From Bacteroidota bacterium (lineage in GTDB: Bacteria > Bacteroidota > Ignavibacteria > UBA10030 > UBA8401): 64,000 nt of DNA. How positions within the stretch are numbered: the first letter of the stretch is position 1; each line of letters starts with the position of its first letter. Of this stretch, positions 2,686-41,653 are shown piece after piece. The notes under the pieces were generated by a model. That model was not told the origin of the DNA. It did not search any database and saw only the letters and a list, made by a program, of their open reading frames with translations. The stretch is from the NCBI GenBank assembly GCA_021796215.1, contig JAJYOK010000003.1, positions 186,001-250,000 on the forward strand. The letters are read 5' to 3'. The position numbers were made by a program, and so were the translations under genes.

Positions 2686-3885
2686 TCATTGCACATTTTC
2701 GCGTGTCGTTCTTACCCACTCTTTTACTGTTCCGTTAATAACAAGTTTAAAATATAATTGAATTTTCCAGAGAAGGTATCGCGGAAAATATAATGTCGCT
2801 TTGAATAACAAAGAATCCGCTCCCGATGCGGCGAGCCCGATAAGTATGTATAAAACACAGACTGCCAGCAATCCGCTCCACAACTCGACGTGCAATGCCG
2901 TGCTGCGAATGCCGGCAAGCGGCAGCATTAATTCGATGAAGATTACAGCGATAACCACACCCATCATATTGACAAATGCCGGCGTCAGCAACTCTATAAA
3001 AGCGTCGAGCAGCGTTAGCGACGGATGCCGGATAACTGCTTTGAACAGCCTTGGTGTGTAACGCCGGATAATTGCAAACCTGCCGGTTTCCCATCGTGCG
3101 CGCTGACTTTCAGCATTCTGAGGACGCGCTGGCATTGTTGCTATGACACGCGCTTCGGGAGCAAATACAGTTTTTATTCCTTGAAAAAGAAGGAGCAGCC
3201 CGTACTCGAAGTCTTCAGTGATTGAGTGGGCTTGCCACGGTACCGCTTGTATCGCTTTTGAAGAAAAACACATCCCATTCCCGCGCAAGCCGGCAGAACA
3301 TCCGACAACTTTTCTGCCGAGAGGCCTGACATAATTATACAGTGTCAACGCGACACGCGCAACTTCAGAACTCCACGCTCCGGGCATCGGCGCCACGAGA
3401 TCGGCAGCTTGAATAGAAACGTAACCGCGCTCAAGGTAAACATTCATTACACGAAGAAAATTTTTCGAAACAATGCTGTCAGCATCAACGACAACATACG
3501 CATCATAGTGTTTCGGATCATCAAGTAAACGCTCAAAGCACCATTGCAACGCGTGCCCTTTTCCCCGGTGAATTGTATCATTTCGCTCGCACACTGTTGC
3601 TCCGTTCGCGCTGGCGACACCGGCAGTTAAATCAGTGCAATTATCCGCGACGACAATCACGTCGTACAAATTCGACGGATACTCCGATGCAAAAAAACTC
3701 TGAATCGTTTTTCTTATTGTGAATTCTTCGTTGTGGGCGGGAATGATGCATGCAAATTTTCGTTGTGTTTTCACCCTAAATGAAATGTGCTTTCGGGCGA
3801 AGAGCGCAAACACACTCAGCATAAAAGAGTATAGGATAAAAAATCCCAACACACCGAAAAGTAGTACTTCAAACAGACTGATCAT
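2686..3885 (-). CDS. Membrane glycosyltransferase family 2, processive type
   Basis: 399 residues. An N-terminal membrane helix (about residues 4-27) precedes a GT-A domain with IIPAHNEE, ADNCTD, VVDADS (the DxD), TEDFEYG, and QRARW, which fits the QxxRW motif of processive beta-glycosyltransferases such as cellulose, chitin or hyaluronan synthases. The C-terminal 120 residues carry three or four hydrophobic segments that would form the membrane channel region. The gene starts 9 bases after the glmS stop, so the two are almost surely cotranscribed. That hints at, but does not prove, an amino-sugar donor. An ATG preceded by TAGGAAAA supports the start. The gene lies downstream of the large polysaccharide locus on the same strand. 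Confidence 0.85.
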   Translation of the reverse strand: MISLFEVLLFGVLGFFILYSFMLSVFALFARKHISFRVKTQRKFACIIPAHNEEFTIRKTIQSFFASEYPSNLYDVIVVADNCTDLTAGVASANGATVCERNDTIHRGKGHALQWCFERLLDDPKHYDAYVVVDADSIVSKNFLRVMNVYLERGYVSIQAADLVAPMPGAWSSEVARVALTLYNYVRPLGRKVVGCSAGLRGNGMCFSSKAIQAVPWQAHSITEDFEYGLLLLFQGIKTVFAPEARVIATMPARPQNAESQRARWETGRFAIIRRYTPRLFKAVIRHPSLTLLDAFIELLTPAFVNMMGVVIAVIFIELMLPLAGIRSTALHVELWSGLLAVCVLYILIGLAASGADSLLFKATLYFPRYLLWKIQLYFKLVINGTVKEWVRTTRENVQ

Positions 3886-3894
3886 TGAATTTTC

Positions 3895-5724: not shown

Positions 5725-5761
5725 CGTTCCTCCTTAGCGCCTGCCGCTTTATTTTTAGCTG

Positions 5762-7441
5762 TTAGTTTTCATCGTCGCATGAGGCAAGAAAAACGGTTTG
5801 TGTCGCTAACATTTGCCTTTCATGCTCCTGTATATCTTCGTTGACAGAGCCGAGCATAGTCAGATGACTCATTGTTGTAAGCGTATCGTTGTCTTTATGT
5901 TCTTTTGCCAACATCTGAATGGCTGCAACAATAGCCTGGCGCCTTCTTTGCCGCTCTTCCAGCTGTTTCTGGTACAGTTCGAGCTGCTGCTGCTGTCGTT
6001 GTCCCTGTTTCTCAATAATTCGCTGCTCAAGCTTTAACACTTCTTCATTGAGAGGGTCAAGAATAATGACGAAAGCAAGTTCGCTTAGCGCCTCTTCAAG
6101 TCTGTTGCTCGTAAACAATTGATTAACATGGCGCAGGTAACGACGAACTTCGCTGTCGTGTTCTCGTTTACCGTTATGTCTTTCGTTCATTGCTTCCGGT
6201 GCAGGCTGCCGAGTCTGTCGCATGCGCATTTCGATGATCTCCTCATGTCCATGTTTTTCAGCCGCTAATTTTCTCTGCTCATCTTCGCAAACGCGGCGAT
6301 CTTCCTCCTGTGCCCTGCGGATTTTTTCTTCAAGCTTGCGGACTTTTTCGTTTGCGGGATCAAACAAGTACGCACGGGTGAGCTCGTCTAGTGCGCGGTT
6401 ATATTCTTGCTTTTCAACATATGCTGAAGCGCGGGCAAGAAAGTCTGTAATCTTTCGTTCAAGAGCAACACGCTGTTGTTCTTCTTGGTTACGTTGTTCC
6501 TCTTCTTCTTTTTGGGTGTGTTTCAACTCGTTATTATGGTGTGCTGTTGCAAGCGCATTCCGTTCTTCTTCTATTGTTTTGCGGACAGCTTCTTCCATGC
6601 TGTGTATTTTTTCATTGGCTGGATCAAACAAATAGGCGCGAGCAATTTCATCAAGTGCACGATTGAATTCTTTCTTTTCAGAATATGCTGCGGCTTGTGA
6701 AAGGAATGAAGCAATCTTCTGCTCAACCGCTGCCCGGTGCTCTGCCCTCTTGAGTCTCTCTTCTTCCTCCTTTTTACGAAGCATCCGGGATTTTTCTTCC
6801 TGTGCTGTTGTTAGTAAATGCCGCTGAATTTCAATAGCTTCACGCACTTTTTCTTCGAGGCTGCGAATTTTTTCGTTCTCCGGATCAAGCAAATACGCGC
6901 GTGTTATTTCGTCAAGCGCACGGTTGTATTCCTTCTTCTCAAAAAATGATGACGCGCGTACACGAAAAACCTCTATTTTTTCATCAACCGGAGACCGGGC
7001 GGATAGAGACTGGCTGACAGCGGCGGCACACGTTTCTTGCCGCGTTTGTTTTTCTGCCACCTCCGGTATTTTCAAGTTTTCGTTTGTGATGGCCTTTTCT
7101 TCCGGCGCAACGGGCACGGATCGTTGAGCCTCGATTACGGCAAGGTTAGAAAGGTACTGCAGCGGCGGAGCTTGTTTTTCCGGCGCAGTTTTCGCCGCCA
7201 CCTGACTTGTTGGTATTTGCTGCGTAGCGGACTGACTTTTTCCCTCTTCTACCTGTTCACGCAGCAATGCCTTCACTCGCTCCTCGTACGCCATTGCATA
7301 CAGATTGCGCGGGTCGCAGGATTGCGCTTTCATAATCAACTCCAACGCCGCCGCAAGGTTTTCTTCCTTCACAAGCTTATCTGCCTGCTTCAAAAGCGAA
7401 GCGACTTCTTTCGCTCGCTCCGGATTTTGTGCTGTACCCAT
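5762..7441 (-). CDS. Tandem TPR-like and coiled-coil repeat protein
   Basis: 559 residues from the ATG at 7441 (MGTAQNPERAKEV), chosen because AGAGGAG lies about 7 bases upstream; an open frame runs 24 codons further but lacks such a site. Three near-identical 87-88 residue units (about 155-241, 242-329, 330-405) each hold a TPR-like helix pair (EYNRALDEITRAYLLDPENE and variants) followed by a charged Glu/Lys/Arg-rich coiled-coil spacer. Degenerate copies lie near residues 14-60 and 432-480. No signal peptide or membrane segment is visible, so it is probably a cytoplasmic scaffold. It sits between a GH9 gene and glmS on the same strand. I do not recognise a named family. The repeats also show at DNA level with a period near 264 bp. 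Confidence 0.8.
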   Translation of the reverse strand: MGTAQNPERAKEVASLLKQADKLVKEENLAAALELIMKAQSCDPRNLYAMAYEERVKALLREQVEEGKSQSATQQIPTSQVAAKTAPEKQAPPLQYLSNLAVIEAQRSVPVAPEEKAITNENLKIPEVAEKQTRQETCAAAVSQSLSARSPVDEKIEVFRVRASSFFEKKEYNRALDEITRAYLLDPENEKIRSLEEKVREAIEIQRHLLTTAQEEKSRMLRKKEEEERLKRAEHRAAVEQKIASFLSQAAAYSEKKEFNRALDEIARAYLFDPANEKIHSMEEAVRKTIEEERNALATAHHNNELKHTQKEEEEQRNQEEQQRVALERKITDFLARASAYVEKQEYNRALDELTRAYLFDPANEKVRKLEEKIRRAQEEDRRVCEDEQRKLAAEKHGHEEIIEMRMRQTRQPAPEAMNERHNGKREHDSEVRRYLRHVNQLFTSNRLEEALSELAFVIILDPLNEEVLKLEQRIIEKQGQRQQQQLELYQKQLEERQRRRQAIVAAIQMLAKEHKDNDTLTTMSHLTMLGSVNEDIQEHERQMLATQTVFLASCDDEN

Positions 7442-7534: not shown

Positions 7535-9253
7535 TTAATGTTTCGCAACATCTTTATCTGCCATCAAGGCGCAATACCCGGAAACAAAAGCAAGCGGTGC
7601 TGTATAATTAATTGCCGGCTCATTGACAAAATAATTTTTTGCGTTGTCTTCATAGCACTGTCCCGGATATTCGGATATTATTTTCCCCCGAAGGCGGCTG
7701 AATTTATTGCATCCCGCAACAAGCATTCCGGGTACCGGTGCATCGGTTCCGGACAGCATGGAGAATTGATGATACGGATGCATAACAGGATTAGAACCAA
7801 CACCTGTCACGAACGAAATATCAAACGTATTGCGGCCAAGAATGTAGTGAAGCTGATCTAATGCGCCGTCAAGATAACGCCGTAACTTTGTGGTTTCATA
7901 TGCATTGATGAGATCAAACGCGTGCCCCATGATCACGCTGTTCGAGCCCCAGTAATATTCATCGGGCGAAAGCACACACCGATAGCCATTGTCTTGGATA
8001 CGTTCCAACAACGCATCGCAATATCGCGTCAGCGATGCCACGATAAATGAATGCGCCTCGTAATTGTGAATGTCAACCGGAACATTGAGATACGAGTAAT
8101 AAGCAAAATTCTGGACGTGCTGCCAGCTTACTGTATAATTGACACCGCCAAGCATTTTGTAATTGGATAAAAAATATTCGTGATAAGCTGAATTGCCAGT
8201 GGTGCGATACAATTCGACCGATGCCCACAACCGTTCATCGGAATCTTGAACGTCGCCATATTCTCCTCCTTCGACACCGGCAGGGTTTTTGAAACCGCCC
8301 GGCGGTACAATGGATTCGTGCTTCTGTAAAAAATCCCACGCCCTGATGGAAGCGCGCAGCAAAGTTTCCGCAAAAGCTTTATCCCATCGGTTAAACAAGC
8401 GAGCGCCAAGCGCTGTGACAGCGGCAAAATCACCTGTCGCTGTGCTGCTAACATCAAAAATATACTGGGTGTCAGATTCTTCCTGAGGCAAGTGTTCACC
8501 CGTCCATTTCTTAATTGACGCTTTGTGATATACTCCGCCGTCCCCGCTCTGCATTTTGAGTAACCACTGCAATCCCCATCGCGCTTCGTCAAGAATATCA
8601 GGAATGTTGTTATGTGATTCCGGGATTTTCAGATCGCCGTCAGAAAATTTTTCCGGCTGCAGTTCGTACAAATAGAGAAGAAACGCAGCGCTCACTGCAG
8701 TTGTCGGGACAAATTTATTATAATCACCGGCATCATGCCATCCTCCGGTAACATCTTTGGTTTTCGCGGGGTTATCGAAAAAGTGCGCCGGCGCAGTATG
8801 ACATGCAAAATGTTTCCATTGCGTTCCGTTATTCACAGCAATACCGCAGCGTTGGTAATAAAAACTTTGCTGCGACGCAAGAGACGCTTTTGCGTAGACG
8901 TTGTCAGCAATGAGGAATGCATCGGAATGCTCTGTCGTGTCGTGCAACACGATACGGTAATAGCCGGGAGTGCTCAGGCGCGAAAAATCAATCGTGAATA
9001 TCGTATCGCCTGTTGCCGGATCAATTGTGCCGATGCGGCCGATTTCTCCACCAAGCGCGGTTTTGTTCGTCCGCATGTTAATAACTCTGAATTCTCCTTC
9101 ACTGTGTTTTTTTGTAAATGCAAGTTTCGGATCGCTCGGACGATATCCTAATTGATCAACGAGAACCGACGGCTGTGCTTTGCTTGCATCCTGACACGAC
9201 ATCAAGCAAGCGGCGCATAACAAAACAAGCATCCATTTACATGGCAACTTCAT
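7535..9253 (-). CDS. Glycoside hydrolase family 9 lipoprotein (endoglucanase-like)
   Basis: 572 residues. The N-terminus MKLPCKWMLVLLCAACLMSC is a lipoprotein signal with lipobox LMSC, so the enzyme should be anchored to a membrane. An N-terminal Ig-like domain (VLVDQLGYRPSDPKLAF) of the type found in GH9 enzymes is followed by the six-hairpin catalytic domain. GGWHDAGDYNKFV carries the catalytic-base aspartates, GVGSNPVMHPYHQFS a substrate-binding stretch, and YFVNEPAINYTAPLAFV the catalytic acid Glu. The family cuts beta-1,4-glucans. GAGGAG five bases before the ATG supports the start. It begins 12 bases after the stop of the phosphoribosyltransferase fusion, at the end of the polysaccharide locus. 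It may trim the locus's own polymer rather than feed on cellulose; that is inference. Confidence 0.92.
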   Translation of the reverse strand: MKLPCKWMLVLLCAACLMSCQDASKAQPSVLVDQLGYRPSDPKLAFTKKHSEGEFRVINMRTNKTALGGEIGRIGTIDPATGDTIFTIDFSRLSTPGYYRIVLHDTTEHSDAFLIADNVYAKASLASQQSFYYQRCGIAVNNGTQWKHFACHTAPAHFFDNPAKTKDVTGGWHDAGDYNKFVPTTAVSAAFLLYLYELQPEKFSDGDLKIPESHNNIPDILDEARWGLQWLLKMQSGDGGVYHKASIKKWTGEHLPQEESDTQYIFDVSSTATGDFAAVTALGARLFNRWDKAFAETLLRASIRAWDFLQKHESIVPPGGFKNPAGVEGGEYGDVQDSDERLWASVELYRTTGNSAYHEYFLSNYKMLGGVNYTVSWQHVQNFAYYSYLNVPVDIHNYEAHSFIVASLTRYCDALLERIQDNGYRCVLSPDEYYWGSNSVIMGHAFDLINAYETTKLRRYLDGALDQLHYILGRNTFDISFVTGVGSNPVMHPYHQFSMLSGTDAPVPGMLVAGCNKFSRLRGKIISEYPGQCYEDNAKNYFVNEPAINYTAPLAFVSGYCALMADKDVAKH

Positions 9254-9265
9254 CTTTTCTCCTCT

Positions 9266-12097
9266 TCATTTCGCCATTATAAAAAATCTCTGGAGTTTCG
9301 GTTGTTCAGCGACATTTAGCAAGCGAAAAAATAATTGCGCTGTCTGCTGAGCAGCGTCTGGAACGCGAAGAAATTCAGTCCGTCCCACCGAATCGGTTCG
9401 CTGCGTGCATTCTTTCGCCGCTTCAAGCAATCCTTTGGCACCACGATGATGTAAGATTTTCCAGCCTGCTGAGCCCGCTTTTTGTTGTAATCCCTTTGAA
9501 CAATTACGCGGCACGTAACCGTGTTCGGCTTCTTCCAGCATTCCGATATCTTCGTCAGAATCACCGATAGCGGCAACGGCAGCGGCGCTATTCTGTAAAT
9601 ATTTTCTGACAAACTGAACTCCGCTTTTCTTGCTGCACTCTTTTTGAATGATATAGGTATCTGCGTCCCGCGCAATGAACGTCAGTTTATGAAGGTTGTG
9701 CTTTACCAAAAGATTTCTTGCTTCCTCAACGCTCAATCCGGATGTGCGGCTGTCGTTGTACCGGTATGCGCGAACAGAATAAGTATACTCTGGGTCAATA
9801 AAAACACCCGACAACGTCCGAATGACCTCGCGGCAGCGGCTTAATTGTTCTTTGCCATCATCGTCAATAAGCGGGATTTCTTGCTTTAGTACATTGTCAA
9901 AAAAAACGCTCCCGTATTCTCCAACGCCTCCCTGAAAAGTGTACGCCGTGCAATATAACTTCACATGCTGAATGCTTCTGCCGGTATTAAGAATAATTGA
10001 CCACCCGTCGGTTCGTAAACAGGCAATGGCTTGAATCCCGCTGACCGTTGTATGTGGAAACCCAAGCACTTCCGTATCATACACGCCGTCTAAATCCAGA
10101 AAGAAAAGTTTTTTCGTCCATTCCCCATGGTAAGTGCGTTGATGTAAGCCGGCGGCAAACCGGTTCATCGTACCAGCCAAAAAAGTGCGTGCATAAGTGG
10201 ATCGTTTATTGCCCATTTCACTACGCAACAGCCGAGCAAATTCAGCAGATTTTCTCATGACCCGGATTCCATACAAAAGCTTATAAAGCAATAGGCGGTC
10301 TCTGGCAGAATTGTCGCCGGTATAATTCTTATATGCCTGTAAAAATTCTTCTTCGGTGCTTCGCGGCATTTGAAATTCAAAAACGGCGCCTGCGACATCG
10401 TACACCGGATCAACAATATCAAGCTCAGGTGCACCAAAATTATGATGTTCAAAATCAACCTTGAACAACCCATCATGATTTTCTATCCATTCATGCGGAA
10501 GAATTTTTCCGTCCGTTACCGCAGGAGTGTACTGAAGCTTCCTCTGAAGCTCTGCCAAAAGTTTTTTGTCAATGATGCGGCCGAGGTAATTGCCGTACGC
10601 GCGGCGCACGATGCTGAGAATTTCAAGCCAGCCCCATCCATAATCGGGATTTCCTCTGCGTGGATCCTCCTTCAGGCGCAGGCGGTTTGTTCTGGCGGCA
10701 ATATACGATGCCAATGTTTGCACAGAAACAGCTGCACCAATTTCTTTTTTCTCCTTTGAAGCACGGTCAATCCAATCCATCAAAAGTAAGCCATTGCGAA
10801 GCCCGATACATGCCGGAACAAATTCGTGCATGCGCTTCGACATGATGAATGCGTGATACCCAAGCCATCCCCATCCTACACTCTTGGCAATTACGCGCCT
10901 CACTTCCGGCTTGGCGTGATCATTACTCGCACGAAATTCATAAAGCCGTTTCAAGCGCACCTGAAATCCTTCGGCATAATGAGCCTGCAACCGCGAGTTG
11001 ATCGCTTCCGTCTCTTTAGTCGTTTCGACGCTAACATTCGCCCATTGTTCACCTGAAAAATATTGCAGTGCGAGTTTTTCAATAGAAGGTGCTTGCATGA
11101 GTTTCCGTTTATAAAGCTCTTCATGCTCAAGAGCAATGACTTTCGATCCCGTTAACTTTCTTACAATATTCGTCCATCCGGTTTCGTACGAATGGTTGGG
11201 CGCTAAAAAGGTAACTCTGCGCGGCGAAATTCTGCGCGTTGTAAGAAGTTTCGAAGTCCGCAGAAATGTCTGACCCGTGTTTTGATAATCATCAATGACG
11301 AGCACCGGAGAAGACCTGAACATCATTCGCCGCAGCGCTTTTTTTTCCCCTCGCGCCAATCCTTCTCTCGGGCGTATTGTCATCCACGAAACATTAGGCC
11401 AGCCGAGAGAAGAAAGATAGGCTTTTGCCAGCGGAGCAAAATATGCGCCTGCCGTGCGAATCCCGACAATCATGACCGGAGAATAATGGTTGTTACTCGC
11501 GGTGATAAATTTCTGCACCAACGAAAAAACATCAAAGTGAGTTAAATCCTGACAACGGAATCCCTCATTTATTTTCATTCTCCGCTGCAACAGCGTGTCG
11601 GGCAATTCCAAACGAATAAGCGGGGCTATTTTCTTATTAATTTCCATGATGCGCTCGGAACGCGGCGCTGAATTTTCTACGAGCAGCGCGCAGACCTGTT
11701 CAATACAGCGATTCCAATTTCGCTTCCAGCGAACAACGCGTGTTTTGAAAAACGAATTTCTCAGCCGTGAACGCAAATTGAGAAGGCGTTCTAACGCGGA
11801 AATCACAAACTTCCAGCCGGGAAAACGATCTTGAAGCTTTTCCAATTTCCATCTGCGTACAGCAAGAAAATCATCAACGGCACATCCGATGGCACAGACA
11901 AAAAGGTACAGGTTGATCATACTTTCTTCTTTTTGCCACTCATATTGCAGTGAGGAATAGCGCTCACATTCTTCACTTAACCGCATGAACAAATCGTGCA
12001 CTGTCAAATACGGATTAAGACACCACTCATAATGAGAATAAAATCGCAATTCTGATTGCTGAGTACTTTGCATTGACATGGTTGGCGTACTGATCAT
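9266..12097 (-). CDS. Three-part fusion: phosphoribosyltransferase, kinase-like region, HAD phosphatase
   Basis: 943 residues without a signal peptide. Residues 1-190 are helical and unrecognised. Residues 205-345 look like a type I phosphoribosyltransferase: MIVGIRTAG, then the PRPP loop VLVIDDYQNTGQTF at 265-278. Residues 400-640 resemble a divergent aminoglycoside-phosphotransferase fold: VGWGWLGYHAF, LPHEWIENHDG, KVDFEHHNFG at 546-555, and DPVYDVAGA. The usual HxDxxxxN catalytic loop is not intact. Residues 660-890 are a HAD hydrolase of the Cof/trehalose-phosphatase style: DLDGV at 668-672, NTGR near 704, and GDSDED at 845-850. The fold calls for the first and third parts are firm; the middle one is tentative. 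It lies in the polysaccharide operon, 51 bases after a GNAT gene and 12 before the GH9 gene. Likely a bifunctional or trifunctional metabolic enzyme making a phosphoribosylated and then dephosphorylated small molecule; the substrate is unknown. Confidence 0.8.
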   Translation of the reverse strand: MISTPTMSMQSTQQSELRFYSHYEWCLNPYLTVHDLFMRLSEECERYSSLQYEWQKEESMINLYLFVCAIGCAVDDFLAVRRWKLEKLQDRFPGWKFVISALERLLNLRSRLRNSFFKTRVVRWKRNWNRCIEQVCALLVENSAPRSERIMEINKKIAPLIRLELPDTLLQRRMKINEGFRCQDLTHFDVFSLVQKFITASNNHYSPVMIVGIRTAGAYFAPLAKAYLSSLGWPNVSWMTIRPREGLARGEKKALRRMMFRSSPVLVIDDYQNTGQTFLRTSKLLTTRRISPRRVTFLAPNHSYETGWTNIVRKLTGSKVIALEHEELYKRKLMQAPSIEKLALQYFSGEQWANVSVETTKETEAINSRLQAHYAEGFQVRLKRLYEFRASNDHAKPEVRRVIAKSVGWGWLGYHAFIMSKRMHEFVPACIGLRNGLLLMDWIDRASKEKKEIGAAVSVQTLASYIAARTNRLRLKEDPRRGNPDYGWGWLEILSIVRRAYGNYLGRIIDKKLLAELQRKLQYTPAVTDGKILPHEWIENHDGLFKVDFEHHNFGAPELDIVDPVYDVAGAVFEFQMPRSTEEEFLQAYKNYTGDNSARDRLLLYKLLYGIRVMRKSAEFARLLRSEMGNKRSTYARTFLAGTMNRFAAGLHQRTYHGEWTKKLFFLDLDGVYDTEVLGFPHTTVSGIQAIACLRTDGWSIILNTGRSIQHVKLYCTAYTFQGGVGEYGSVFFDNVLKQEIPLIDDDGKEQLSRCREVIRTLSGVFIDPEYTYSVRAYRYNDSRTSGLSVEEARNLLVKHNLHKLTFIARDADTYIIQKECSKKSGVQFVRKYLQNSAAAVAAIGDSDEDIGMLEEAEHGYVPRNCSKGLQQKAGSAGWKILHHRGAKGLLEAAKECTQRTDSVGRTEFLRVPDAAQQTAQLFFRLLNVAEQPKLQRFFIMAK

Positions 12098-12148
12098 TTT
12101 TCTTTTTCAATTTCAAAAAACGGTCAAAAAAATATAGATCTTCGTGAT

Positions 12149-13396
12149 TCATTTATTGAGCGGGCGGTGTGTTGCCTTGCGCGCATGGATCCTTTTTCTT
12201 CGTGCTTTGAATTTCCTTAATAACCTGAGAGTGATATCCTGTCCCAATGCCCGCAACCCGTCAATTGTCCACGGATATATGCGGTACGTAAAATACTGGG
12301 AGACATTCTCCGTCCACACATGAATCCACGGCTCATCGTTACCCAAAAACTCAAAACTTTTTAGACGATGATTGAATGCATAACGTATTGCTTCATGCAT
12401 TAGCAAAGTTCCGGGCGAACAATGTGCAAATGCTTCATTGTAGCCGATTTTGAAGGTCCAAAAGCGTCCGGCGTACTCAGCCGCAAGCTGCGCCGCTATC
12501 GCCTTGCCATTAATCCGCATGTAACATGTACGAAGAATTCCTTTGCAAGCCGCTGTGCGTGCATATAATAAAAAGAAACGTTTTAGTTCCTGAATAGACC
12601 GCATGCTTGTACCGTTGCGCTCTTTCCAACTCGCGGCTTCAATTCGGAAAATTTCTTCCAGCTGACTGTTAACATCATTGATCTCAGGCGCAATAATTTG
12701 GTATTCTATAGTACCAAGCTTTTCTGCGTGCCGGCGGGCACGCCGCAAGCTTGAACGACGGCTCGCGGAAATTCCATTTTCAAACTCATCCCACGACGAT
12801 GCAATCGTAATCGAAGGCGCTCGTGAAAGTTCTTTGAATACGAACACTCGCGGAAATCGCAGCCGCTGTTCTACCGCCAGGGAGTCTAAAGCATCGAGCG
12901 CCAATCTGCCAAATATTGTCGGTTTGCGTAGAGCAGAGATCACTTCGAGCAAACGCCGCAGCGATTCTTCATCCCGATAAATAAATCCGCTCGGTTCCAG
13001 AAGCAGTGACGAACCCAGAAATTCCAAGCGTTCAACGCCATCAGTTTTCACAAGCGCCAGGGGAGCACCCGCGGCAATTTTATTATCAACCCGCAGCACA
13101 ATGACTGAAAGCTTTGCCGGCGGGCAAAACGCTTCGGCACAAGCTGCAAACCATTCGTGCGAAAGAAGCGGCGATTGAAACTTCTGCGCAAGCATGTTCC
13201 ATTCATCCGCCAACAGCACAAATTCCTTTGTTTCGCTCACGACCTCGACTATCCACTCTTTGTTGCTTTTGGCAAAGGGGTGAAATCCTTTGGGTGTTTC
13301 GGAAACACTACTTTGTGAATGTTGAACTCCCTTAGCCCGACGATGTGTTTCCTCAGCAGTTGAACGCATCAATTTTTCCATTTGCCCATGTATCAA
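12149..13396 (-). CDS. CelD/BcsL-type GNAT acyltransferase (FemAB-like)
   Basis: About 415 residues. The C-terminal half matches the CelD/BcsL acetyltransferase family: SASRRSSLRRARRHAEKLG, then FRIEAASWKERNGTSM, then GKAIAAQLAAEYAGRFWTFK, GYNEAFAHCSPGTLLMHEAI, and LKSFEFLGNDEPW. Such proteins are common in exopolysaccharide loci and are thought to acylate or aminoacylate sugars or lipid-linked precursors in the cytoplasm. The frame opens with a TTG at 13396, 11 bases after GAGGAGG. An ATG at 13381 is further from that site, so the exact start is uncertain. It lies between the PRODH-like gene (55-base gap) and the phosphoribosyltransferase fusion. A second member of the family is encoded at 16763-18202. 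Confidence 0.8.
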   Translation of the reverse strand: MIHGQMEKLMRSTAEETHRRAKGVQHSQSSVSETPKGFHPFAKSNKEWIVEVVSETKEFVLLADEWNMLAQKFQSPLLSHEWFAACAEAFCPPAKLSVIVLRVDNKIAAGAPLALVKTDGVERLEFLGSSLLLEPSGFIYRDEESLRRLLEVISALRKPTIFGRLALDALDSLAVEQRLRFPRVFVFKELSRAPSITIASSWDEFENGISASRRSSLRRARRHAEKLGTIEYQIIAPEINDVNSQLEEIFRIEAASWKERNGTSMRSIQELKRFFLLYARTAACKGILRTCYMRINGKAIAAQLAAEYAGRFWTFKIGYNEAFAHCSPGTLLMHEAIRYAFNHRLKSFEFLGNDEPWIHVWTENVSQYFTYRIYPWTIDGLRALGQDITLRLLRKFKARRKRIHARKATHRPLNK

Positions 13397-13451
13397 TATT
13401 TTAACAACCTCCTCTGTCGTTGTATTAATTATTTATTCCAGCGGTCGGCCG

Positions 13452-14471
13452 TTAAAGAGAAGTAATAAAAGGTGTTCCTTCTCCATGCTGTTGGCGCCCT
13501 CGGAGAGAATTTTCAACCGGCTTATTGTTTTCTGCTTCTTTTTGTTTTGATACTTCAAAAGAATGCGTGCCAATTGATGATTGAAAACCTGTTTGAGTCT
13601 GCGGTTTGTCGTTTTCCTCTAATGATGAACCGAGTTCTCTAATTTTTTCGCTGGTGCTCAAAAAACTGTCACGTATAATCCACCAAAATATTTTCGGGCG
13701 CTCTATAGCAAATGAAAGATTGTATGGCATTGAAGGATAACCGTAGGGAATGTACAGCCTTCGTTCAATATTTTCTCTGCCAATCGCGTGTGCATCCAGC
13801 CACGGTAAACCAGTCATTTGTTCGATCTCGTATGGCGTGGAGCTTTCACTGAGAATTTTCACCGCTTCGCACGCCAGCTTTTCGTCATGTGTTGCTATGC
13901 TGACATGGTTTTTACTTCCTGCAAACATATCAACAAGATTGAGATAGCGACGACGCACATTTGTATGCAAATTCAATGGATCGTTCCACTGTCCCTTTAC
14001 AATCCGGACAGGAATTTGCATGTCGAGAATTTTTTCTGCATCAATTACACTCCGACGCCATCGCGCAGGAAGTGTGTAGCCGATGTTGCGATATCGCTGC
14101 AAGCCATATTCAAGAAGAGCGAGCGAACGCGGCGCAGATTCCGGGTGCTGCGCGTCAATAAGAAGAGGAATGTCGAGCGCCTTCGCGTGCCACACAACGT
14201 CGCTGAACAGTGTAGACGAATAGTGCAGCGCAGTCAATTTGATAGAGAGCCGGCAATCTGCGTTGAGTTCAGCAATAGCATTCAACGCACGGGCGTACTG
14301 GAAGGCAACAAGAGCTGGCGTGTCATAAGGACGTTCCCATAAACAGAGCGTGATCTTCCACCCATGAGCCGACGCGCGCCGGCAAACATCAATCGCACTT
14401 GAAAGAGCCGGCCCTGTTGTATGAGAGCGCGCAAGAAATCTCAGAACTTTTGATTTCAGATCTTCTATCAT
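13452..14471 (-). CDS. Divergent proline-dehydrogenase-like TIM barrel
   Basis: 339 residues from the ATG at 14471, which has GGAGGAGGT five bases before it; a longer frame to 14507 (an ATGA overlap with the ATP-grasp gene) has no such site. The protein tracks the canonical proline dehydrogenase encoded at 56706-57620 motif by motif: LSIKLTAL, LLIDAQHPES, VRIVKGQW, VSIATHDEKL, YEIEQMTGLP, and a final RLYIPYGYPSMPYNL. In the canonical enzyme the last block ends in an Arg pair (YSIRRLKENP) that binds the proline carboxylate. Here the aligned residues read NLSFAIERP, with no Arg pair. So the flavin barrel seems kept and the proline site lost; a different substrate, or no catalysis, is inferred. 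The C-terminal 70 residues are polar and unrecognised. Confidence 0.72.
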   Translation of the reverse strand: MIEDLKSKVLRFLARSHTTGPALSSAIDVCRRASAHGWKITLCLWERPYDTPALVAFQYARALNAIAELNADCRLSIKLTALHYSSTLFSDVVWHAKALDIPLLIDAQHPESAPRSLALLEYGLQRYRNIGYTLPARWRRSVIDAEKILDMQIPVRIVKGQWNDPLNLHTNVRRRYLNLVDMFAGSKNHVSIATHDEKLACEAVKILSESSTPYEIEQMTGLPWLDAHAIGRENIERRLYIPYGYPSMPYNLSFAIERPKIFWWIIRDSFLSTSEKIRELGSSLEENDKPQTQTGFQSSIGTHSFEVSKQKEAENNKPVENSLRGRQQHGEGTPFITSL

Positions 14472-14503
14472 AGCACACCTCCTCCCTGTCATATTAGGCA
14501 AAC

Positions 14504-15844
14504 TCATAAATCAACTGCATTTTGAACCGACGGGATGGCGCTTGTCACCGCTTGTCGTTTGTCGGTCAGCGCTGGTTTCACCGGTGCAGCCGGCTGTTCC
14601 GTTTCATGGCGGCGGCCGAAGAGCCGTCCTACATTTCTCTTGACAAACGCAAACAAGGAAACCAAAAACGGGCGCATATCTTTCCGGTCGAATACTCTGT
14701 AGTATTTTTTCCGTTTTAACGATTGGAGATACGTTTTCAGTGTCCACTCACCAAGAGCACGGTAACCGCCAAAAAAGGCCCTCGCATCTTGTTTGAAATA
14801 CAGCAATCGCACATCATTTTTGTAATAAACCTGCGGAGGAATTTCTTTCCCCCGTTGATGCTCGTACGCAATGTAGGCGAGATTAGCGCCTGCTAATGCG
14901 CCGACAACTTCCCATAAATTATATCGCGGATTCATTTCGAGAATTTTGAAATCCTGGCTGCGCGGGTCCCACTTAAAATCAATCTTTACAATTCCTTTGA
15001 ATTGAATTTGCTGTAAACATTCGATGCTCAGCTGGGCTAATGTCGGATGGTAAATTGTTCGCACGTATGCGCTTCCGCCGGTATTCGGTGGATACGTTCG
15101 AATTTTTCGCCCGACAAAATATCCAAGGCATCGCGACTGTTCATCAAAATATCCATGGAAACTTAAAATGTTTTCATCACTTCCTTCTATATACGATTGA
15201 ATAAGATAGCCCGACTGGCGCTTTGGCAGCGCGCGGCAAAAGTCAACCAATTCTTCTTTCGATGCAATACGCCGCAGCGCTTTTTTGTAGGGACCGAACT
15301 TTGTTCTTTGCTCTTCGGTGTCCCACACCCAATCCTGTGTAAATGCCGGTTTAACGATACATGGGTATTCGATAAATGAAATTGTGCTGTTTAGATCGTC
15401 CGTGCCTTTAGCTATCGTCGTTTCAGGAATCGGGAGATCATAGGCTTTCGCAAAGCTGCTGAAAAGTACTTTGTTAAAAAGGCATTCGAGAAGTTGATCC
15501 GACGGGAGGAGAAATCTGTACAGCGAACTGAGCCTATCCCGGTAGTGCCAAATAAATGCAAGCTCAGCATCCGATGTATAATACAGCACCGGACATTCTT
15601 TTTGCTGACGCGCAAATGTTTCAAGAAGCTGTGCTATTTTCTCTTCGTTGCTCTGCTGAAATGACGGAAGGAAAATTCTTCCTCCGCAATATTTTGAATA
15701 GAACGCAATATCATCTCGTTGGGATGAGGCCACGGTTGTACGAATTCCCGCAATGCCGAGTGCGCGGACAATATCGTACGCGTCTGGTGTGCCTCCCGCT
15801 GTGATGACAATTGCAGTGGATGAGTTTTGATCAATGTTCTGCAT
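14504..15844 (-). CDS. ATP-grasp carboxylate-amine ligase
   Basis: 446 residues. The N-terminal Rossmann-like preATP domain (IVITAGGTPDAYDIVRALG) is followed by the ATP-grasp core: FNKVLFSSFAKAYDLPIPET, YPCIVKPAF, SGYLIQSYIEGSDEN, GIVKIDFKWD, and FKILEMNPRYNLW, the last giving the metal-binding Glu and Asn. Family members join a carboxylate to an amine or thiol using ATP, via an acyl phosphate. The C-terminal 90 residues are basic (KRKKYYRVFDRKD) and may bind membrane or partner. No signal peptide. AGCGGAG lies before the ATG. It sits 43 bases after the ComA-like gene and 32 before the PRODH-like start. The substrates are not predictable from sequence. Confidence 0.88.
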   Translation of the reverse strand: MQNIDQNSSTAIVITAGGTPDAYDIVRALGIAGIRTTVASSQRDDIAFYSKYCGGRIFLPSFQQSNEEKIAQLLETFARQQKECPVLYYTSDAELAFIWHYRDRLSSLYRFLLPSDQLLECLFNKVLFSSFAKAYDLPIPETTIAKGTDDLNSTISFIEYPCIVKPAFTQDWVWDTEEQRTKFGPYKKALRRIASKEELVDFCRALPKRQSGYLIQSYIEGSDENILSFHGYFDEQSRCLGYFVGRKIRTYPPNTGGSAYVRTIYHPTLAQLSIECLQQIQFKGIVKIDFKWDPRSQDFKILEMNPRYNLWEVVGALAGANLAYIAYEHQRGKEIPPQVYYKNDVRLLYFKQDARAFFGGYRALGEWTLKTYLQSLKRKKYYRVFDRKDMRPFLVSLFAFVKRNVGRLFGRRHETEQPAAPVKPALTDKRQAVTSAIPSVQNAVDL

Positions 15845-15887
15845 AAGGTTTCTCCGCTTTTCTTGTTCTGCGTATTGTTATTTTTCT

Positions 15888-16751
15888 CTATACTTTAGCT
15901 TCGAAAAGCTCACGCTGCGCAAGCTTTCGTGCCGCTTGTGGACGAAGATGAAGTTTTTGAAATGCATCGCAATGAAGACCGCGGCGATAACTCTCCGCCT
16001 GTAAAATGTCTTCAAGGTGAACATTACACAGGTGAACATCGCGGCCAAAATAATCGAGCAATGCAAACTGGCTGTGCAAGTCCGGCGCTTCAAACATGAC
16101 TGTATGCAAGCCGAATATTTTTGCAAAGCGGTCGGCATACGGGTAATTGAGCATGCCTCTTCGATTAAATAATCCACTATGCCATAAATTTTCCCGGGCT
16201 TTCACTACGAGCTGTATTGCACCGGCATCAAGCCATTCCTGCCCTTGATCAATCATAGAATCGGCGGCTTTCTTTCCCGATATGCCGGACGTATGCTTTC
16301 CCAATTCAATCTGGACTTCAAGTTCCCGTTCCGTTGCGGCGGACACAACGGTTTTCGGCTTCTGGCGGGCTTCCGTTACGCGTGACATGACCTCTACTCT
16401 TGCCACGCCGATATCGGCACACAGATCGAGATAATCAGAAAGTTTTCTTAACGAAATAGCTATCTCAAGCGGCGACCCTCCGGTAACAGTTGGAACACTA
16501 TAGCGCCGCGCTGCCGCAACTTTTTGCCGTGTCGCATTTTCATCTGCGACCAACCACCCAGCCAGTCCAATTTTTATAATTGAAATTAAATGTGAACTTT
16601 GATCCATGTGGCTTTCAAATGTCATCGGGTCACATCCAACGTCAACCGGACTGGTCAATGGCGGGATTTTGGGGATTCCAAGTTCACGTAAATACTCGCT
16701 TGTATGGAAGCGCCGTTTCATCACAACTTCGTCATCAGTTTGCTTCATCAT
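15888..16751 (-). CDS. ComA-like (phosphosulfolactate synthase family) TIM barrel
   Basis: 287 residues from the ATG at 16751, placed 7 bases after GAGGAG; a GTG at 16766 overlaps the upstream stop but has no ribosome site. The pattern follows the ComA family of phosphosulfolactate synthases: HLISIIKIGLAGWLV, YSVPTVTGGSPLEIA, GVARVEVMSRV, WLDAGAIQLVVKAREN, VMFEAPDLHSQFALLDYFG, DVHLCNVHLED, and SYRRGLHCDAF. ComA adds sulfite to phosphoenolpyruvate, the first step to coenzyme M and sulfolactate. Its presence within a polysaccharide operon, with no other coenzyme M gene seen, argues for a different product, perhaps a sulfonated or carboxylated decoration. Family membership is well supported; reaction is inference. 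Confidence 0.75.
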   Translation of the reverse strand: MMKQTDDEVVMKRRFHTSEYLRELGIPKIPPLTSPVDVGCDPMTFESHMDQSSHLISIIKIGLAGWLVADENATRQKVAAARRYSVPTVTGGSPLEIAISLRKLSDYLDLCADIGVARVEVMSRVTEARQKPKTVVSAATERELEVQIELGKHTSGISGKKAADSMIDQGQEWLDAGAIQLVVKARENLWHSGLFNRRGMLNYPYADRFAKIFGLHTVMFEAPDLHSQFALLDYFGRDVHLCNVHLEDILQAESYRRGLHCDAFQKLHLRPQAARKLAQRELFEAKV

Positions 16752-16762
16752 TATCCAACTCC

Positions 16763-18202
16763 TCACGATTGCTTGTTATCATTTTCTAAAGACAATGGAA
16801 AATCTGCGGGCGCGAACTTTTCCTGAAAAAGTTTTTCCGTCAGGCGGTGTACAAATAATTGTATGTACATAAAAAGGAATTTTCCCGCGCCGTGAACGTA
16901 CAATTGCACGGACAACAATTTCCATTCGTCAGAAATGCGCCTTCCCGTCTTCCCAACAATGCGGACAAGCCGGTACAGCATGACCCTCAATGTTTTCCTC
17001 GTTTGCGGATTAAACACGTGAATATCCACGTTGCGAGCCATACCGGTTGCCAACTCAAATTTGTACTGCTCTGTGCCGCGCAAAAAATCAACAACGCGAA
17101 CTTTGCTCTGTATCGCATTTTCAATCATCGTCAGTAACAGAGCTCTGCTTGGACTTTTCTTCGCACCGGGGGCTGTGTCATCGAACCCGGAAAGATAATC
17201 GTAGCATCGCCCCTTAAAAATAAAACCGACGCGCAACGCAATGCGCACGCCCGCGAACCGGACTGCTTTAAACCACAGGACGCGTTGTTTGTAAAACGCG
17301 CTGAGAACATCGCTTTGAAATTGAGTGAATCTGTGGTCTGAAAAAAGGCCGGCATACCCCAGCCTGTTCCATCGCAATTGATGTAACTGAACCAGATCGC
17401 GATAGGCGCTCGCGAAAGATGACCACGTCTCAATGGTTTCAATCGAGAACGGAGGATGTGCAACGAATTCTTTCTTCACCTGATTCACGCGGTGCCGCAA
17501 ATTGGGATGAACGTCGAGATATTTCTCCATTGACTGCGGCGCGGCAAGGTATGGGCAGATTTCACCTTCCGCAACATTACACTCCCAATGCGATTTTTTC
17601 AATTCAGGCACAATGTATTTGTTCAGGGCACTCTGCTGAGGTACGTCCTGAAAATGAACTTCGTCGAAAAGATCGGCATGGGCAGCAAGATACGCGGAAA
17701 ATTCTTTTGCAACTTCAACGCCATTCTCCGGAAGTACAATGATATCGAGATAATCGCTGGGCCCATATTCTGCCGGCAAGCCGCGATTCTCCTTTGATGC
17801 GATTCCGCAGCCAAGCATCCGCAAGCGGCTGTACATCACGTTGTCTCTTTGTGAATATCCATGGTGGCACACATAATACTTTTGGAGAAACAACGGGATG
17901 ATTCCTACCAGAGCGCCGGAGCGCCGGAATGTAATTATATGCAGTTGAAACTTTGTTCCGTAATGTTTCCACCAGAACCATTGCCACGCAAACAGTTGAT
18001 AGACATGAACAGGGCACTGTTCGACAAGCTTTTCCCACTCATCCCGAAGCATCAGGAATTCCGTTTCACGGGTAACCACCTTCACTTCGAGCGGTGCATT
18101 TTCTGTCTTCAAATGCGGCTGGGACCGTTCCGATTCCTTCACTCGCTCAGCAGGCGCAGATACAGAAGACAGCAATTGAGCTTCAGCTCTTGAATTTTTC
18201 AT
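16763..18202 (-). CDS. Second CelD/FemAB-like GNAT protein of the locus
   Basis: 479 residues from the ATG at 18202, with GGTGAG upstream; it overlaps the deacetylase stop by 20 bases, so translation is probably coupled. An N-terminal GNAT-like part (WEKLVEQCPVHVYQLFAWQ, FQLHIITFRRSGALVGIIPL) is followed by a CelD-type C-terminal part (HPNLRHRVNQVKKEF, QLRWNRLGYAGLFSD, VLWFKAVRFAGVRIALRVGF, YDYLSGFDDT, VDFLRGTEQYKFELA). The family transfers acyl or aminoacyl groups, often in polysaccharide or cell-wall synthesis. It is only distantly similar to the GNAT protein at 12149-13396, so the two probably act on different acceptors or donors. A hydrophobic stretch near residues 440-455 (GKFLFMYIQLFVHRL) may bring it to the membrane. 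Confidence 0.8.
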   Translation of the reverse strand: MKNSRAEAQLLSSVSAPAERVKESERSQPHLKTENAPLEVKVVTRETEFLMLRDEWEKLVEQCPVHVYQLFAWQWFWWKHYGTKFQLHIITFRRSGALVGIIPLFLQKYYVCHHGYSQRDNVMYSRLRMLGCGIASKENRGLPAEYGPSDYLDIIVLPENGVEVAKEFSAYLAAHADLFDEVHFQDVPQQSALNKYIVPELKKSHWECNVAEGEICPYLAAPQSMEKYLDVHPNLRHRVNQVKKEFVAHPPFSIETIETWSSFASAYRDLVQLHQLRWNRLGYAGLFSDHRFTQFQSDVLSAFYKQRVLWFKAVRFAGVRIALRVGFIFKGRCYDYLSGFDDTAPGAKKSPSRALLLTMIENAIQSKVRVVDFLRGTEQYKFELATGMARNVDIHVFNPQTRKTLRVMLYRLVRIVGKTGRRISDEWKLLSVQLYVHGAGKFLFMYIQLFVHRLTEKLFQEKFAPADFPLSLENDNKQS

Positions 18203-19157
18203 AATCACTCACCGAATGATGTAATGGTTCGATCGAATGAAACGGCGGCACAAGCAGTTCGTTTTCATAGCCGCGTTGTTTTTTTCTGAGAATTTTTCCG
18301 GCAGTCCATCGCAGCCAACTGTAATACTGGTAAAGATTTGAGACCCGAACGGCAAGCTGTGAATTTGTCGTTGAATTCAAGATCGGAATACGGCGCAGCT
18401 CGTATACGTCTCTTCCAAAAAAAGCCGGACCCGTCCACACACTGCACGCATGGACAAATCCGGCACTCGCTACCATTTGTTTCACTGCCTCGTTCACAAG
18501 TCCGTATGGATATGAAAAACTGAGCACCGGCGCGTTGAGAAGAATTTCAAGAAGAACGCGTGCGCGTGAAATTTCTTCCCATGCACGATCCTCTTTCACT
18601 TCGGTGAGTCTTATGTGGCTCATCGAATGCGCTCCGATTTCAATTCCCGCTTCATGCATTTCCAAAATATGGTTGTCATCCAACAACGGCACCTGCGGAA
18701 GTTTAAGGTGCGCATCCCACACATTGGTTCTGATCGAGCGGTCTCCCAGCACAAATACAACCGCCTTCATACCGAATTCCTGTAACAACGGAAATGCAAT
18801 TTGATATGTATCCAGATATCCGTCATCGAATGTTAAAATGATCGGCTTGTGCGGCAACTCCAAACGTTTCTCAGAGGCAATCCGGTAATCTTCAAACGTG
18901 ATGGGCGTAAATCCCCACCGGTCCAGCCATTCAAGATGTTTGCGGAATTCGTCTTCAGGGAGACAGAATTTGCAGACATTTTCTTTTCCGGCGTTTTTCA
19001 CGATACGGTGATAAACCAGAATTTTGATTGTACGAGAACCGTTTTGTCTCAACGACTCGCTTTCCGCTCTTTCCGGCGGTTGTGTCTGATATCTATGTTC
19101 AGGAATCATATTCAGCCCGCTGTTCTTTTCAAATAAGAATGCAAACTCCTGCTGCAT
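18183..19157 (-). CDS. Polysaccharide deacetylase (NodB fold)
   Basis: 324 residues. The NodB homology domain shows ILTFDDGYLDT (the catalytic base and metal Asp), GAHSMSHIRL (HxxxH metal ligands) and LSFSYPYG. Members remove N- or O-acetyl groups from sugars. No signal peptide or membrane helix is seen, so this one likely works in the cytoplasm or on lipid-linked intermediates, as in other exopolysaccharide loci. KILVYHRIV opens the domain at about residue 46. Its start codon directly follows the stop of the GT4-type glycosyltransferase, and its end overlaps the next GNAT gene, both signs of a single transcript. Confidence 0.9.
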   Translation of the reverse strand: MQQEFAFLFEKNSGLNMIPEHRYQTQPPERAESESLRQNGSRTIKILVYHRIVKNAGKENVCKFCLPEDEFRKHLEWLDRWGFTPITFEDYRIASEKRLELPHKPIILTFDDGYLDTYQIAFPLLQEFGMKAVVFVLGDRSIRTNVWDAHLKLPQVPLLDDNHILEMHEAGIEIGAHSMSHIRLTEVKEDRAWEEISRARVLLEILLNAPVLSFSYPYGLVNEAVKQMVASAGFVHACSVWTGPAFFGRDVYELRRIPILNSTTNSQLAVRVSNLYQYYSWLRWTAGKILRKKQRGYENELLVPPFHSIEPLHHSVSDYEKFKS

Positions 19158-20411
19158 TTAGTACACCGTGATTTGTCGTTTGACTGTATTTCCATTGGTA
19201 TTGCGCATAACGTGAGGTTTATTTCTGTGCACAATTTCCTCATAGCATTCTTCCATGCGGCGGCTGATAATTGACCAATCGTAGCGCGTACGCGCTATTT
19301 CGTATCCACATGCAGCAAGCCGCTCTCTTTTTTGCTTGTCATTGAGAAGTTCAACAATCGCATCAGCAAACGATGAAGGCTTGTCCCGCACCAAAAGCGA
19401 TTCACCGTCTTGGACATCAATTCCTTCGCAACCAATGCTTGTCGTGACAATCGGTTTATTTACCGCCATCGCTTCGACAACTTTGAGGCGCGTTCCCCCT
19501 CCCATGCGGAGAGGCACGACATAAACACTTGCTTTTTGCATATACGGACGCACATCTTCAACGTAACCGGTGATAATAATATTGTGTGACGCCCGCTTTA
19601 AAAGATTTTTCGGCGGTTGGCTTCCGACAATGTAAAGTTTTACCCCGGGAATTTTTTTAAGCACCAGAGGGAAAATTTCATTGAGGAAATACAACATTCC
19701 GTCGTAATTCGGAACGTAACCCATCATTCCCGTGAACACAAGCGAAAACGGTTCAATAGACGCATCCGCCGGAGTAAAATAAGAAGTATCAACGCCGTTC
19801 GGAATAACGTATTTCGGAATTTCCGGCACATCGTTATCGAGAATGGATTTGTCTCTCGACGATGTTGCAAAAATTGCATCGCTTTTTTTGCACGCTTTGA
19901 TCTCTTCGGAAAAGAATGTTTTATATTCCCGGCGATAATACATACGGCGCAAGAACGATGGCACGCTTGCCCCAATCCGCCGGAAGTTGTCATACTCGAC
20001 ATTGTGTGCATCGAGAATTGTGACAGCATCCGTCTCGTACTGAAATGCACCCATCACGGCAAATTCCAATTGCACGATATCGTATTCATTTTTCTCCAGC
20101 AGTCTGTTTATCAGCAATTGCATTTCGTGAGTGTACGTGATTAATCGGGAAAAGCTTTGTTTTGTCAGAAGAGCGTACGACTGGCCTACCCGCCGGTTAT
20201 GTTGAATCCATGGATGCGGCGGTATGAGGTGGATATTGTTTACTTGTTTTCCGAAGTGTTCGTTGAGAAGCCGATAATCTTTTTGATTGCCGTACGCTGC
20301 TATGGTCACATTGTGGTGCTCTGCCATATGTTTCAGCAAATGGTAAATGCGTAACGCGCCGCCAAATGTCGGCGGTACCGGTGTGTACGGCATTACATGC
20401 AGAATTTTCAT
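19158..20411 (-). CDS. Glycosyltransferase, GT4-like (GT-B fold)
   Basis: 417 residues. The N-terminal acceptor domain begins MKILHVMPYTPVPPTFGGAL, with GGALRIYHLLKHMAEHHNV typical of GT4. The C-terminal donor domain shows VFTGMMGYVPNYDGMLYFLN, KLYIVGSQPP, ITGYVEDVRPYMQKASVYVV, RMGGGTRLKVVEAMAVNKPI and VTTSIGCEGIDVQDGESLLV. The sequence resembles sugar transferases seen with EpsH/exosortase-type exopolysaccharide loci, though no exosortase is in the window. It acts in the cytoplasm on the lipid-linked repeat unit. The stop abuts the deacetylase start, and 48 bases separate it from the WecG-type gene. Confidence 0.9.
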   Translation of the reverse strand: MKILHVMPYTPVPPTFGGALRIYHLLKHMAEHHNVTIAAYGNQKDYRLLNEHFGKQVNNIHLIPPHPWIQHNRRVGQSYALLTKQSFSRLITYTHEMQLLINRLLEKNEYDIVQLEFAVMGAFQYETDAVTILDAHNVEYDNFRRIGASVPSFLRRMYYRREYKTFFSEEIKACKKSDAIFATSSRDKSILDNDVPEIPKYVIPNGVDTSYFTPADASIEPFSLVFTGMMGYVPNYDGMLYFLNEIFPLVLKKIPGVKLYIVGSQPPKNLLKRASHNIIITGYVEDVRPYMQKASVYVVPLRMGGGTRLKVVEAMAVNKPIVTTSIGCEGIDVQDGESLLVRDKPSSFADAIVELLNDKQKRERLAACGYEIARTRYDWSIISRRMEECYEEIVHRNKPHVMRNTNGNTVKRQITVY

Positions 20412-20459
20412 GCGTTCATTTCCCTTGAGAATAGAAATACATTTTTACGATGTGAAAAT

Positions 20460-21377
20460 TCATGAGAACACTCTTTCCCTAATTATTTTTTGGAGCCTTC
20501 GCGGGAAAAGCTTTTTTGCAAAAAGGAGGGAAAAGAACATCGGAATTTCGACGATCACTCTCTCCCATTTCGCATTTGGCTCCTGTATAAAGCGATAAAA
20601 CCATTCGAACCCGATTTTACGAATCCACAACGGCGCTCTTTTCCGCGTTAACGAGAGGAAATCAAACAGACCTCCGACCGCTATACAGATTTTTGCTTTC
20701 AACTCATGCGCATGACGGCTCGTCCATATTTCCTGCAGCGGAGTTCCAAGCGCGACAAGAACAATATCAGGGTGCACAGCATTAATTTCGTCAACGATCA
20801 TCGCTTCTTCACCGGAACGGAAATGCCCTTCGTGAAATCCGACGATGCGGAGACGCGGATATTTGAGGAACAAAAGCATGCAGCACCGCTCTACAACCTG
20901 AAGTTTTGCACCGAATAAATACACCGACCAACCGCGTTCTTCAGCAATTTTTAAAATCGCAGGGGTGAAATCTGTCCCGTTTAGATTTTCTATGATAGGA
21001 TGCCCGGTAAAACGTCCGCCGATTTTCAATCCGCTGCCGTCTGCCAAAACCAAATCTCCCAAATTGATGCAATATTTGAGAACGCGATTCCGTTGTGCGA
21101 CACAAATACTGTGAACATTGCTGAAAAATATTTTTCTCGCTCGTCCTGAATTTTCTTCCACATAGCGGGAGACAATTTTTCGCGCGGTGTCACCGTCTAT
21201 ATTATCAATTCTTGTTCCCAGCAAATAAAAAGTTTGAAGGTTAAATTGCGGTTCCGTTTCCGCTGTTCCGCTCTTCACCTCATAGCGCAGCAGCGTGCGT
21301 GTCTTCACGCTGTCGTTGAATTCCCTTTGTTGCACTCCGACTCGTTCAGCAACATTTTTTCTTTTTTCTTCAACCAT
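20460..21377 (-). CDS. WecG/TagA/CpsF family glycosyltransferase
   Basis: 305 residues from the ATG at 21377 (MVEEKRKN), which follows TTGGGGAAAG and overlaps the polymerase stop by 8 bases; an upstream ATG at 21434 would overlap by 65 bases and is less likely. Motifs of the family: FYLLGTRIDNIDGDTARKIV, FFSNVHSICVAQRN, LVLADGSGLKIGGRF, NGTDFTPAIL, WSVYLFGAKLQVVERC, VGFHEGHF, and DIVLVALGTPLQEIWTSRH. Members transfer ManNAcA, ManNAc or glucose to a lipid-linked first sugar, commonly as the second step after a WecA-type transferase. That fits the WecA-type fusion encoded divergently at 27461. The C-terminal end (IGFEWFYRFIQEPNAKW) is the usual family tail. Confidence 0.92.
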   Translation of the reverse strand: MVEEKRKNVAERVGVQQREFNDSVKTRTLLRYEVKSGTAETEPQFNLQTFYLLGTRIDNIDGDTARKIVSRYVEENSGRARKIFFSNVHSICVAQRNRVLKYCINLGDLVLADGSGLKIGGRFTGHPIIENLNGTDFTPAILKIAEERGWSVYLFGAKLQVVERCCMLLFLKYPRLRIVGFHEGHFRSGEEAMIVDEINAVHPDIVLVALGTPLQEIWTSRHAHELKAKICIAVGGLFDFLSLTRKRAPLWIRKIGFEWFYRFIQEPNAKWERVIVEIPMFFSLLFAKKLFPRRLQKIIRERVFS

Positions 21378-27422: not shown

Positions 27423-27460
27423 TTTCGAAAAGCAGCAGGCTATGGAAAGAAAGGTGCAGT

Positions 27461-41451: not shown

Positions 41452-41587
41452 CACCGGAACAACACCAATGAACACACAATACGCCACAAACAATTCACCA
41501 TTGCCGCAAACCCGCCAACGTTTCAGCGGCGGAGTGGAAATTGTCAACACTATTCATCAACACACACCTGCGTGCCGGAGCTTGATC

Positions 41588-41623
41588 GCGCGAATCGTTT
41601 CGCGCCGGCAGACGCTTCGGCGT
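41588..41623 (+). promoter_or_regulatory. Two leader hairpins upstream of the first chitinase
   Basis: GCGCGAA/TTCGCGC with a TCGT loop (41588-41605) is followed by ACGC/GCGT closed by a TTCG tetraloop (41612-41623), one of the most stable RNA loops. They lie 18-30 bases before the Shine-Dalgarno of the chitinase gene. This supports the later GTG start and suggests a structured leader. Confidence 0.45.
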
Positions 41624-41653
41624 GCAGGCACACATGAGAAAGGAGAACCTCAC

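Follow-up and report, generated by a model that had tools for sequence, protein, structure and literature searches.

A ComA-ComB-ATP-grasp cassette in bacterial polysaccharide operons and a probably retooled ComA in a lineage with a dismantled cassette

We analysed a 64,000-nucleotide stretch of DNA from a Bacteroidota genome (the window) and found that a ComA-like gene lies in a six-gene block inside a Wzx/Wzy-type polysaccharide operon. The reading that we favour, with modest confidence, is that the block is a mosaic region for a polymer substituent, in which ComA stems from a sulfolactate cassette, the ComB and ATP-grasp ligase (T) of that cassette have been lost, and ComA has been retooled.

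The block consists of six consecutive open reading frames in the same direction on the minus strand, occupying positions 9266-18208, as a sequence-only reading had recognised. Its general proposal, a block for the biosynthesis and ligation of a small molecule within an exopolysaccharide operon, was supported by our analysis. The genes of the block and its borders are as follows:

7535..9253, minus strand: GH9 glycoside hydrolase (PF00759, 1.6e-89)
9266..12097, minus strand: fusion of a PRTase part, a middle part and a Cof-type HAD part (Hydrolase_3, 1.1e-11; Pribosyltran, 8.7e-4, below cut-off)
12149..13396, minus strand: GNAT (Acetyltransf_6) acyltransferase 2 (Pfam, 9.5e-27)
13452..14507, minus strand: PRODH-like barrel (Pro_dh, 1.5e-4, below cut-off)
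14504..15844, minus strand: ATP-grasp ligase of clade B, not the ComA-ComB partner T (CPSase_L_D2, 8.6e-7)
15845..15887, no strand: gap of 43 bp in place of the ATP-grasp T that completes the triad in the sister genomes G001 and G002
15888..16766, minus strand: ComA-like TIM barrel (PF02679, 6.5e-37)
16763..18208, minus strand: GNAT (Acetyltransf_6/CelD-type) acyltransferase 1 (Pfam, 1e-17)
18183..19157, minus strand: polysaccharide deacetylase, operon core (PF01522, 2.8e-25)

Neighbouring genes of the block overlap by 4 bp at two places (16763-16766 and 14504-14507), and the first GNAT gene overlaps the deacetylase gene by 26 bp. One flank holds the deacetylase, GT4, WecG-like, Wzy-like, BY-kinase-like and Wzc-like genes, and the opposite flank holds GH9, a GT2-like transferase and GlmS; the deacetylase and GH9 were named from Pfam and the remaining flank genes from their sequences. 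Two sister genomes of the same genus (G001 and G002) share the gene order of the window and have an ATP-grasp gene and a flippase gene in addition; the operon genes of the three genomes were 66-90% identical with dN/dS of 0.04-0.21, which indicates that the six reading frames are real genes. The GH9 gene forms the downstream border of the block in G001, G002 and G047. Among the families named by the sequence-only reading, the GNATs, ComA, ATP-grasp and HAD held, but the PRODH and PRTase matches fell below the Pfam cut-offs, and the middle of the fusion, proposed to be kinase-like, matched no Pfam family up to E 5. The Wzx-like flippase gene of G001 and G002 is located between the WecG and GT4 genes, where the window has none (20411-20460). 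A flippase-like gene at 45189-46697 of the window is only ~36% identical to it, suggesting that the window lost or replaced the operon flippase, as with ATP-grasp T.

We scanned one genome per species with an alignment of ComA and obtained 39 loci; the presence of ComB was no criterion in this search. The results showed that a ComB gene was located within 2.5 kb of ComA in all 34 scorable loci, that is, those outside the window's family, minus two that end just after ComA. An ATP-grasp gene, mostly of clade T, was also present in 29 of them. In the ATP-grasp tree, clade T (33 rows, support 99/100) is separate from clade B, which contains the window ligase (5 rows, 100/100). Polysaccharide genes were found in 24 of the 28 ComA loci of at least 10 kb other than that of the window. 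The carriers are labelled as Ignavibacteriales/Bacteroidota, Acidobacteriota, Actinomycetota, Zixiibacteriota, Nitrospirota, Pseudomonadota, Chloroflexota and Deltaproteobacteria, with one contig labelled Bathyarchaeota; nearly all loci derive from metagenome-assembled genomes. Across at least eight bacterial phyla, the cassette is thus located in similar polysaccharide operons; a scan of viral contigs for ComA gave no match.

From PEP and sulfite, ComA forms phosphosulfolactate, which ComB dephosphorylates; so far, sulfolactate is known in coenzyme M synthesis, in spores and in the breakdown of sulfosugars. The canonical cassette ComA has 41 positions identical to the M. jannaschii enzyme. 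The ComA and ComB that we scored reached 148.9 of 280 and 83.4 of 175, both under the NCBIfam equivalog cut-offs, and the canonical cassette is therefore named by family and not by assay. Judged from these families, it most likely makes sulfolactate, which T would ligate to an amine of the polysaccharide. A homologue of the LarA superfamily (nickel-dependent malate/lactate racemases), absent from the window, was found in nine cassette loci. The only one scored, that of L047, was closest to malate racemase models, below the equivalog cut-offs, and this locus also carries an XrtA-system deacetylase over its cut-off. LarA homologues fit a sulfolactate cassette, sulfolactate being the analogue of malate with a sulfonate group, and we infer that it is their substrate there.

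Like the known coenzyme M/sulfolactate pathway (ComA PF02679, ComB PF04029; 1qwg from Methanocaldococcus, 1u83 from a B. subtilis homologue), the cassette has adjacent members of the ComA and ComB families, but it is located in polysaccharide operons together with an ATP-grasp ligase, and no ComDE (sulfopyruvate decarboxylase) was noticed. It shares its operon position and accessory families with the substituent cassettes of Wzx/Wzy and XrtA-type exopolysaccharide systems (deacetylase, GNAT/FemAB-like protein, ATP-grasp), from which it differs by the addition of ComA-ComB. The literature within our coverage, which leaves out most subscription journals, contained no account of sulfolactate synthesis, or of a phosphosulfolactate synthase, in connection with polysaccharide loci or ATP-grasp ligases, and we know of no named exopolysaccharide system that includes ComA-ComB. 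Each enzyme family is known, and the combination in the cassette is undescribed as far as we can tell. Nor did we find a named system with the gene set of the window, in agreement with the sequence-only reading.

The cassette has been dismantled in the window's lineage. ComB is absent from the cluster of the window's genome and of G001 and G002, and in G005, a genome of the same family, there is no ComB between ComA and the contig end. No clade T ATP-grasp was found in the window's genome. In G001 and G002, the metal motif KVLDVNPR of T has become KVLAVNPR or KVLAVHPR, with the metal ligand D replaced by A in both, and the T of G005 keeps the motif (KILDVNPR; L094, contig C190). The window therefore has the polysaccharide context of the cassette and neither the adjacent ComB nor clade T. 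A housekeeping phosphatase of the ComB family (PF04029) was detected in 57 of 60 relatives, the window's genome included, and could replace ComB, which is a counterpoint to the retooling of ComA. The copy in the window's genome is located at G000:C41:75874-76548 (L085 5850-6635). Nearly all 57 carriers have no close relative of the window ComA, so the usual designation of this protein, phosphosulfolactate phosphatase, may not be correct.

The window ComA matched PF02679 with 127.7 bits (gathering score 25.2), and its structure model (pLDDT 91) was closest in the PDB to 1qwg, with a TM score of 0.89 by target length. Alignment showed that four residues of the M. jannaschii enzyme have lost their equivalents in the three members of the window's genus: G107 (replaced by R, R and P), K137 (H, H and Q), E168 (K in all three) and K209 (L in all three). 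Each of these is invariant in the 33 canonical cassette ComA proteins and M. jannaschii, and the B. subtilis row of the alignment also keeps them. E232, invariant in the same 33 canonical members, differs as well, by a conservative change. In the structure model, the four lost positions lie where barrel strands 4-7 end on their C-terminal side or shortly beyond, and this side forms the active face of TIM-type barrels. Most of the conserved residues, for example D42, K65, E125, E154, R191, E192 and E226, are retained in the window ComA.

We then counted departures at 41 otherwise conserved ComA columns by leave-one-out scoring, and found 0-2 in canonical members, 5-7 in the window's genus and 17 in G005. 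Part of the departures in the window's genus is ordinary divergence: its ComA is 61-64% identical to the nearest canonical ComA, and any canonical member is at least 67% identical to its nearest relative. By this sequence comparison, the divergence of the genus itself exceeds that of any canonical member, a second counterpoint to retooling. The dN/dS of ComA (0.036-0.055) was the lowest of the eleven operon genes compared (0.06-0.21 in the other ten), suggesting that the protein was retooled rather than decaying. These results suggest that the window ComA is in use, probably for a changed reaction; it would now make a different small molecule, perhaps from PEP and another nucleophile. The G005 protein (L011 17822-18721), on a very long branch of the tree, shows the same change carried further, though the T ligase fragment of that genome keeps its metal motif.

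The sequence-only reading had proposed a sulfonated or phosphorylated substituent. In all scorable loci beyond the window's family this ComA subfamily is paired with ComB, which speaks for a sulfonate in the cassette, but sulfolactate in the window itself was unsupported, with ComB and the partner ligase missing and active-face residues of ComA changed. It is conceivable, though we consider it unlikely, that the window still makes sulfolactate, the ComA substitutions being tolerated, the HAD part or the PF04029 phosphatase removing the phosphate and ATP-grasp B performing the ligation. Such continuity would agree with the retention of most conserved ComA residues, with the strong constraint on this gene, with the PF04029 phosphatase on contig C41 and with HAD motifs that are intact in all three genus members. 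However, K137, E168 and K209 are all changed although all 33 canonical members and the archaeal enzyme share them, the partner ligase has lost its metal ligand or is gone, and ComB is missing only where ComA is changed. Still less probable, in our judgement, is a ComA without enzyme activity that has become a subunit of the polysaccharide machinery with a structural or regulatory role. An interaction surface could account for its very low dN/dS, and both the loss of four catalytic-face residues and the extensive departures of the related G005 protein would fit, but most acids and bases of the catalytic face are kept in the window's genus.

The chemistry of the favoured mosaic reading, every step of it, and the attachment to a polymer are what we infer from the observed gene content, linkage, residue loss and selection. 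GlmS and the deacetylase in the operon point to an amino-sugar polymer, which would carry a non-sugar acid. In the cassette, PEP and sulfite would give phosphosulfolactate and then sulfolactate. The adjacent deacetylase would free an amino group on the polymer or on a precursor, and T would ligate the sulfolactate to it; the deacetylase of the window could likewise be the source of a free amine. In the window's lineage, ComB would have been lost, T would have decayed and then been lost, and ComA would have been retooled. The HAD domain may take over the dephosphorylation by ComB, ATP-grasp B may join the acid to the amine in place of T, the PRODH-like barrel may catalyse an oxidation with flavin, and both GNATs may act in acyl transfer.

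The PRTase part of the fusion contains the PRPP loop VLVIDDYQNTGQT, and the HAD part has the Cof-type phosphatase motifs DLDGV, TGR and GDSDED; the three copies of the genus keep loop and motifs intact or almost intact. Among 60 relatives and 395 genomes of the phylum, no full-length fusion was found outside the window's genus. The structure prediction of the fusion (pLDDT 36) was too low for use. We considered the HAD part as a proven replacement of ComB and kept it only as a possibility, as G005 also has no adjacent ComB yet has no fusion.

ATP-grasp B, the PRODH-like protein and GNAT2 form a second module, distinct from the ComA cassette: they are linked in L009, L026, L094 and the window's genus. 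L095 has ATP-grasp B with GNAT1 and the deacetylase, without ComA, GNAT2, the PRODH-like gene and the PRTase-HAD fusion. Relatives of GNAT1 were found in L007, L008, L009, L010, L011 and L095, and GNAT1 stays with the deacetylase even where ComA is absent (L095). The window ligase keeps the metal-binding D..E.N motif (KIDFKWD...EMNPR). The PRODH-like protein shares the barrel and the VKG, ATHD and YxPYG motifs with proline dehydrogenase but differs by the missing proline-binding RR..E (NLSFAIERP, compared with YLTRRIAERP in 5m42), which argues against the proline substrate suggested earlier; the canonical PRODH of the window at 56706-57620 retains RR..E. The PRODH-like barrel is a probable flavoenzyme acting on another substrate.

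The six genes had also been taken as one pathway resembling the Ter-associated biosynthetic module, which we take to combine ATP-grasp, PRTase and HAD proteins as the window block does. We regard such a Ter-related pathway as very improbable: ATPgrasp_Ter, the second Pfam hit, reached 27.2 of 29.1 bits, no Ter-type PRTase model matched, the context is polysaccharide synthesis, and ComA, the ATP-grasp/PRODH/GNAT set and the PRTase-HAD fusion have separate distributions, as L095 and the genus-restricted fusion illustrate. By eye, no Ter protein was recognised among the window's reading frames, a minority of which were scanned against models.

Beyond the window, we put forward tentatively that sulfolactate, made by this cassette, is a common non-sugar substituent of exopolysaccharides in at least eight phyla, and that in the window's lineage the synthase took on a new reaction at its original site, which gives a natural before-and-after series of one and the same operon. 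If so, an acid with a C-S bond would be widespread among the building blocks of bacterial slime, exopolysaccharide would be a source of sulfolactate for the other microbes of soil and groundwater that degrade it, and the charged sulfonate group could alter the binding of metal and water by biofilms. The window's lineage would then be a clean case of a phosphosulfolactate synthase gaining a new substrate, because related genomes of the same order have intact cassettes and the operon frame is conserved.

Several other features were observed in these operons. In L009, a 1214-aa protein (3185-6829) combines Acetyltransf_6 domains, hexapeptide repeats and a phosphopantetheine-binding domain beside an AMP ligase, which looks like carrier-bound acyl activation and transfer within one operon. 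A second conserved set, composed of RraA, two ATP-grasps, Ldh_2 and a PhyH-like protein with an AMP ligase nearby, was found in L096 (3633-8971) and L010 (11604-16890), in the same operon type with or without ComA-ComB. We rejected the Ldh_2 (ComC-like) and RraA genes of L010 as sulfolactate steps, since L096 (G057) has the same AMP-ligase, RraA, ATP-grasp, Ldh_2 and PhyH genes with neither ComA nor ComB, and G057 has no ComA. In the window, a single 721-aa reading frame at 27248-29413 contains, by eye, a WecA-like transferase and a CapD-like part; its start overlaps the preceding gene in a different frame, and the matching region of G005 (L011) is divided into two reading frames. Two large secreted proteins near the polysaccharide operon (41432-45034 and 48408-51470) are GH18 chitinase-like by eye, and both end in the C-terminal sorting-type sequence NYPNPFNPST.
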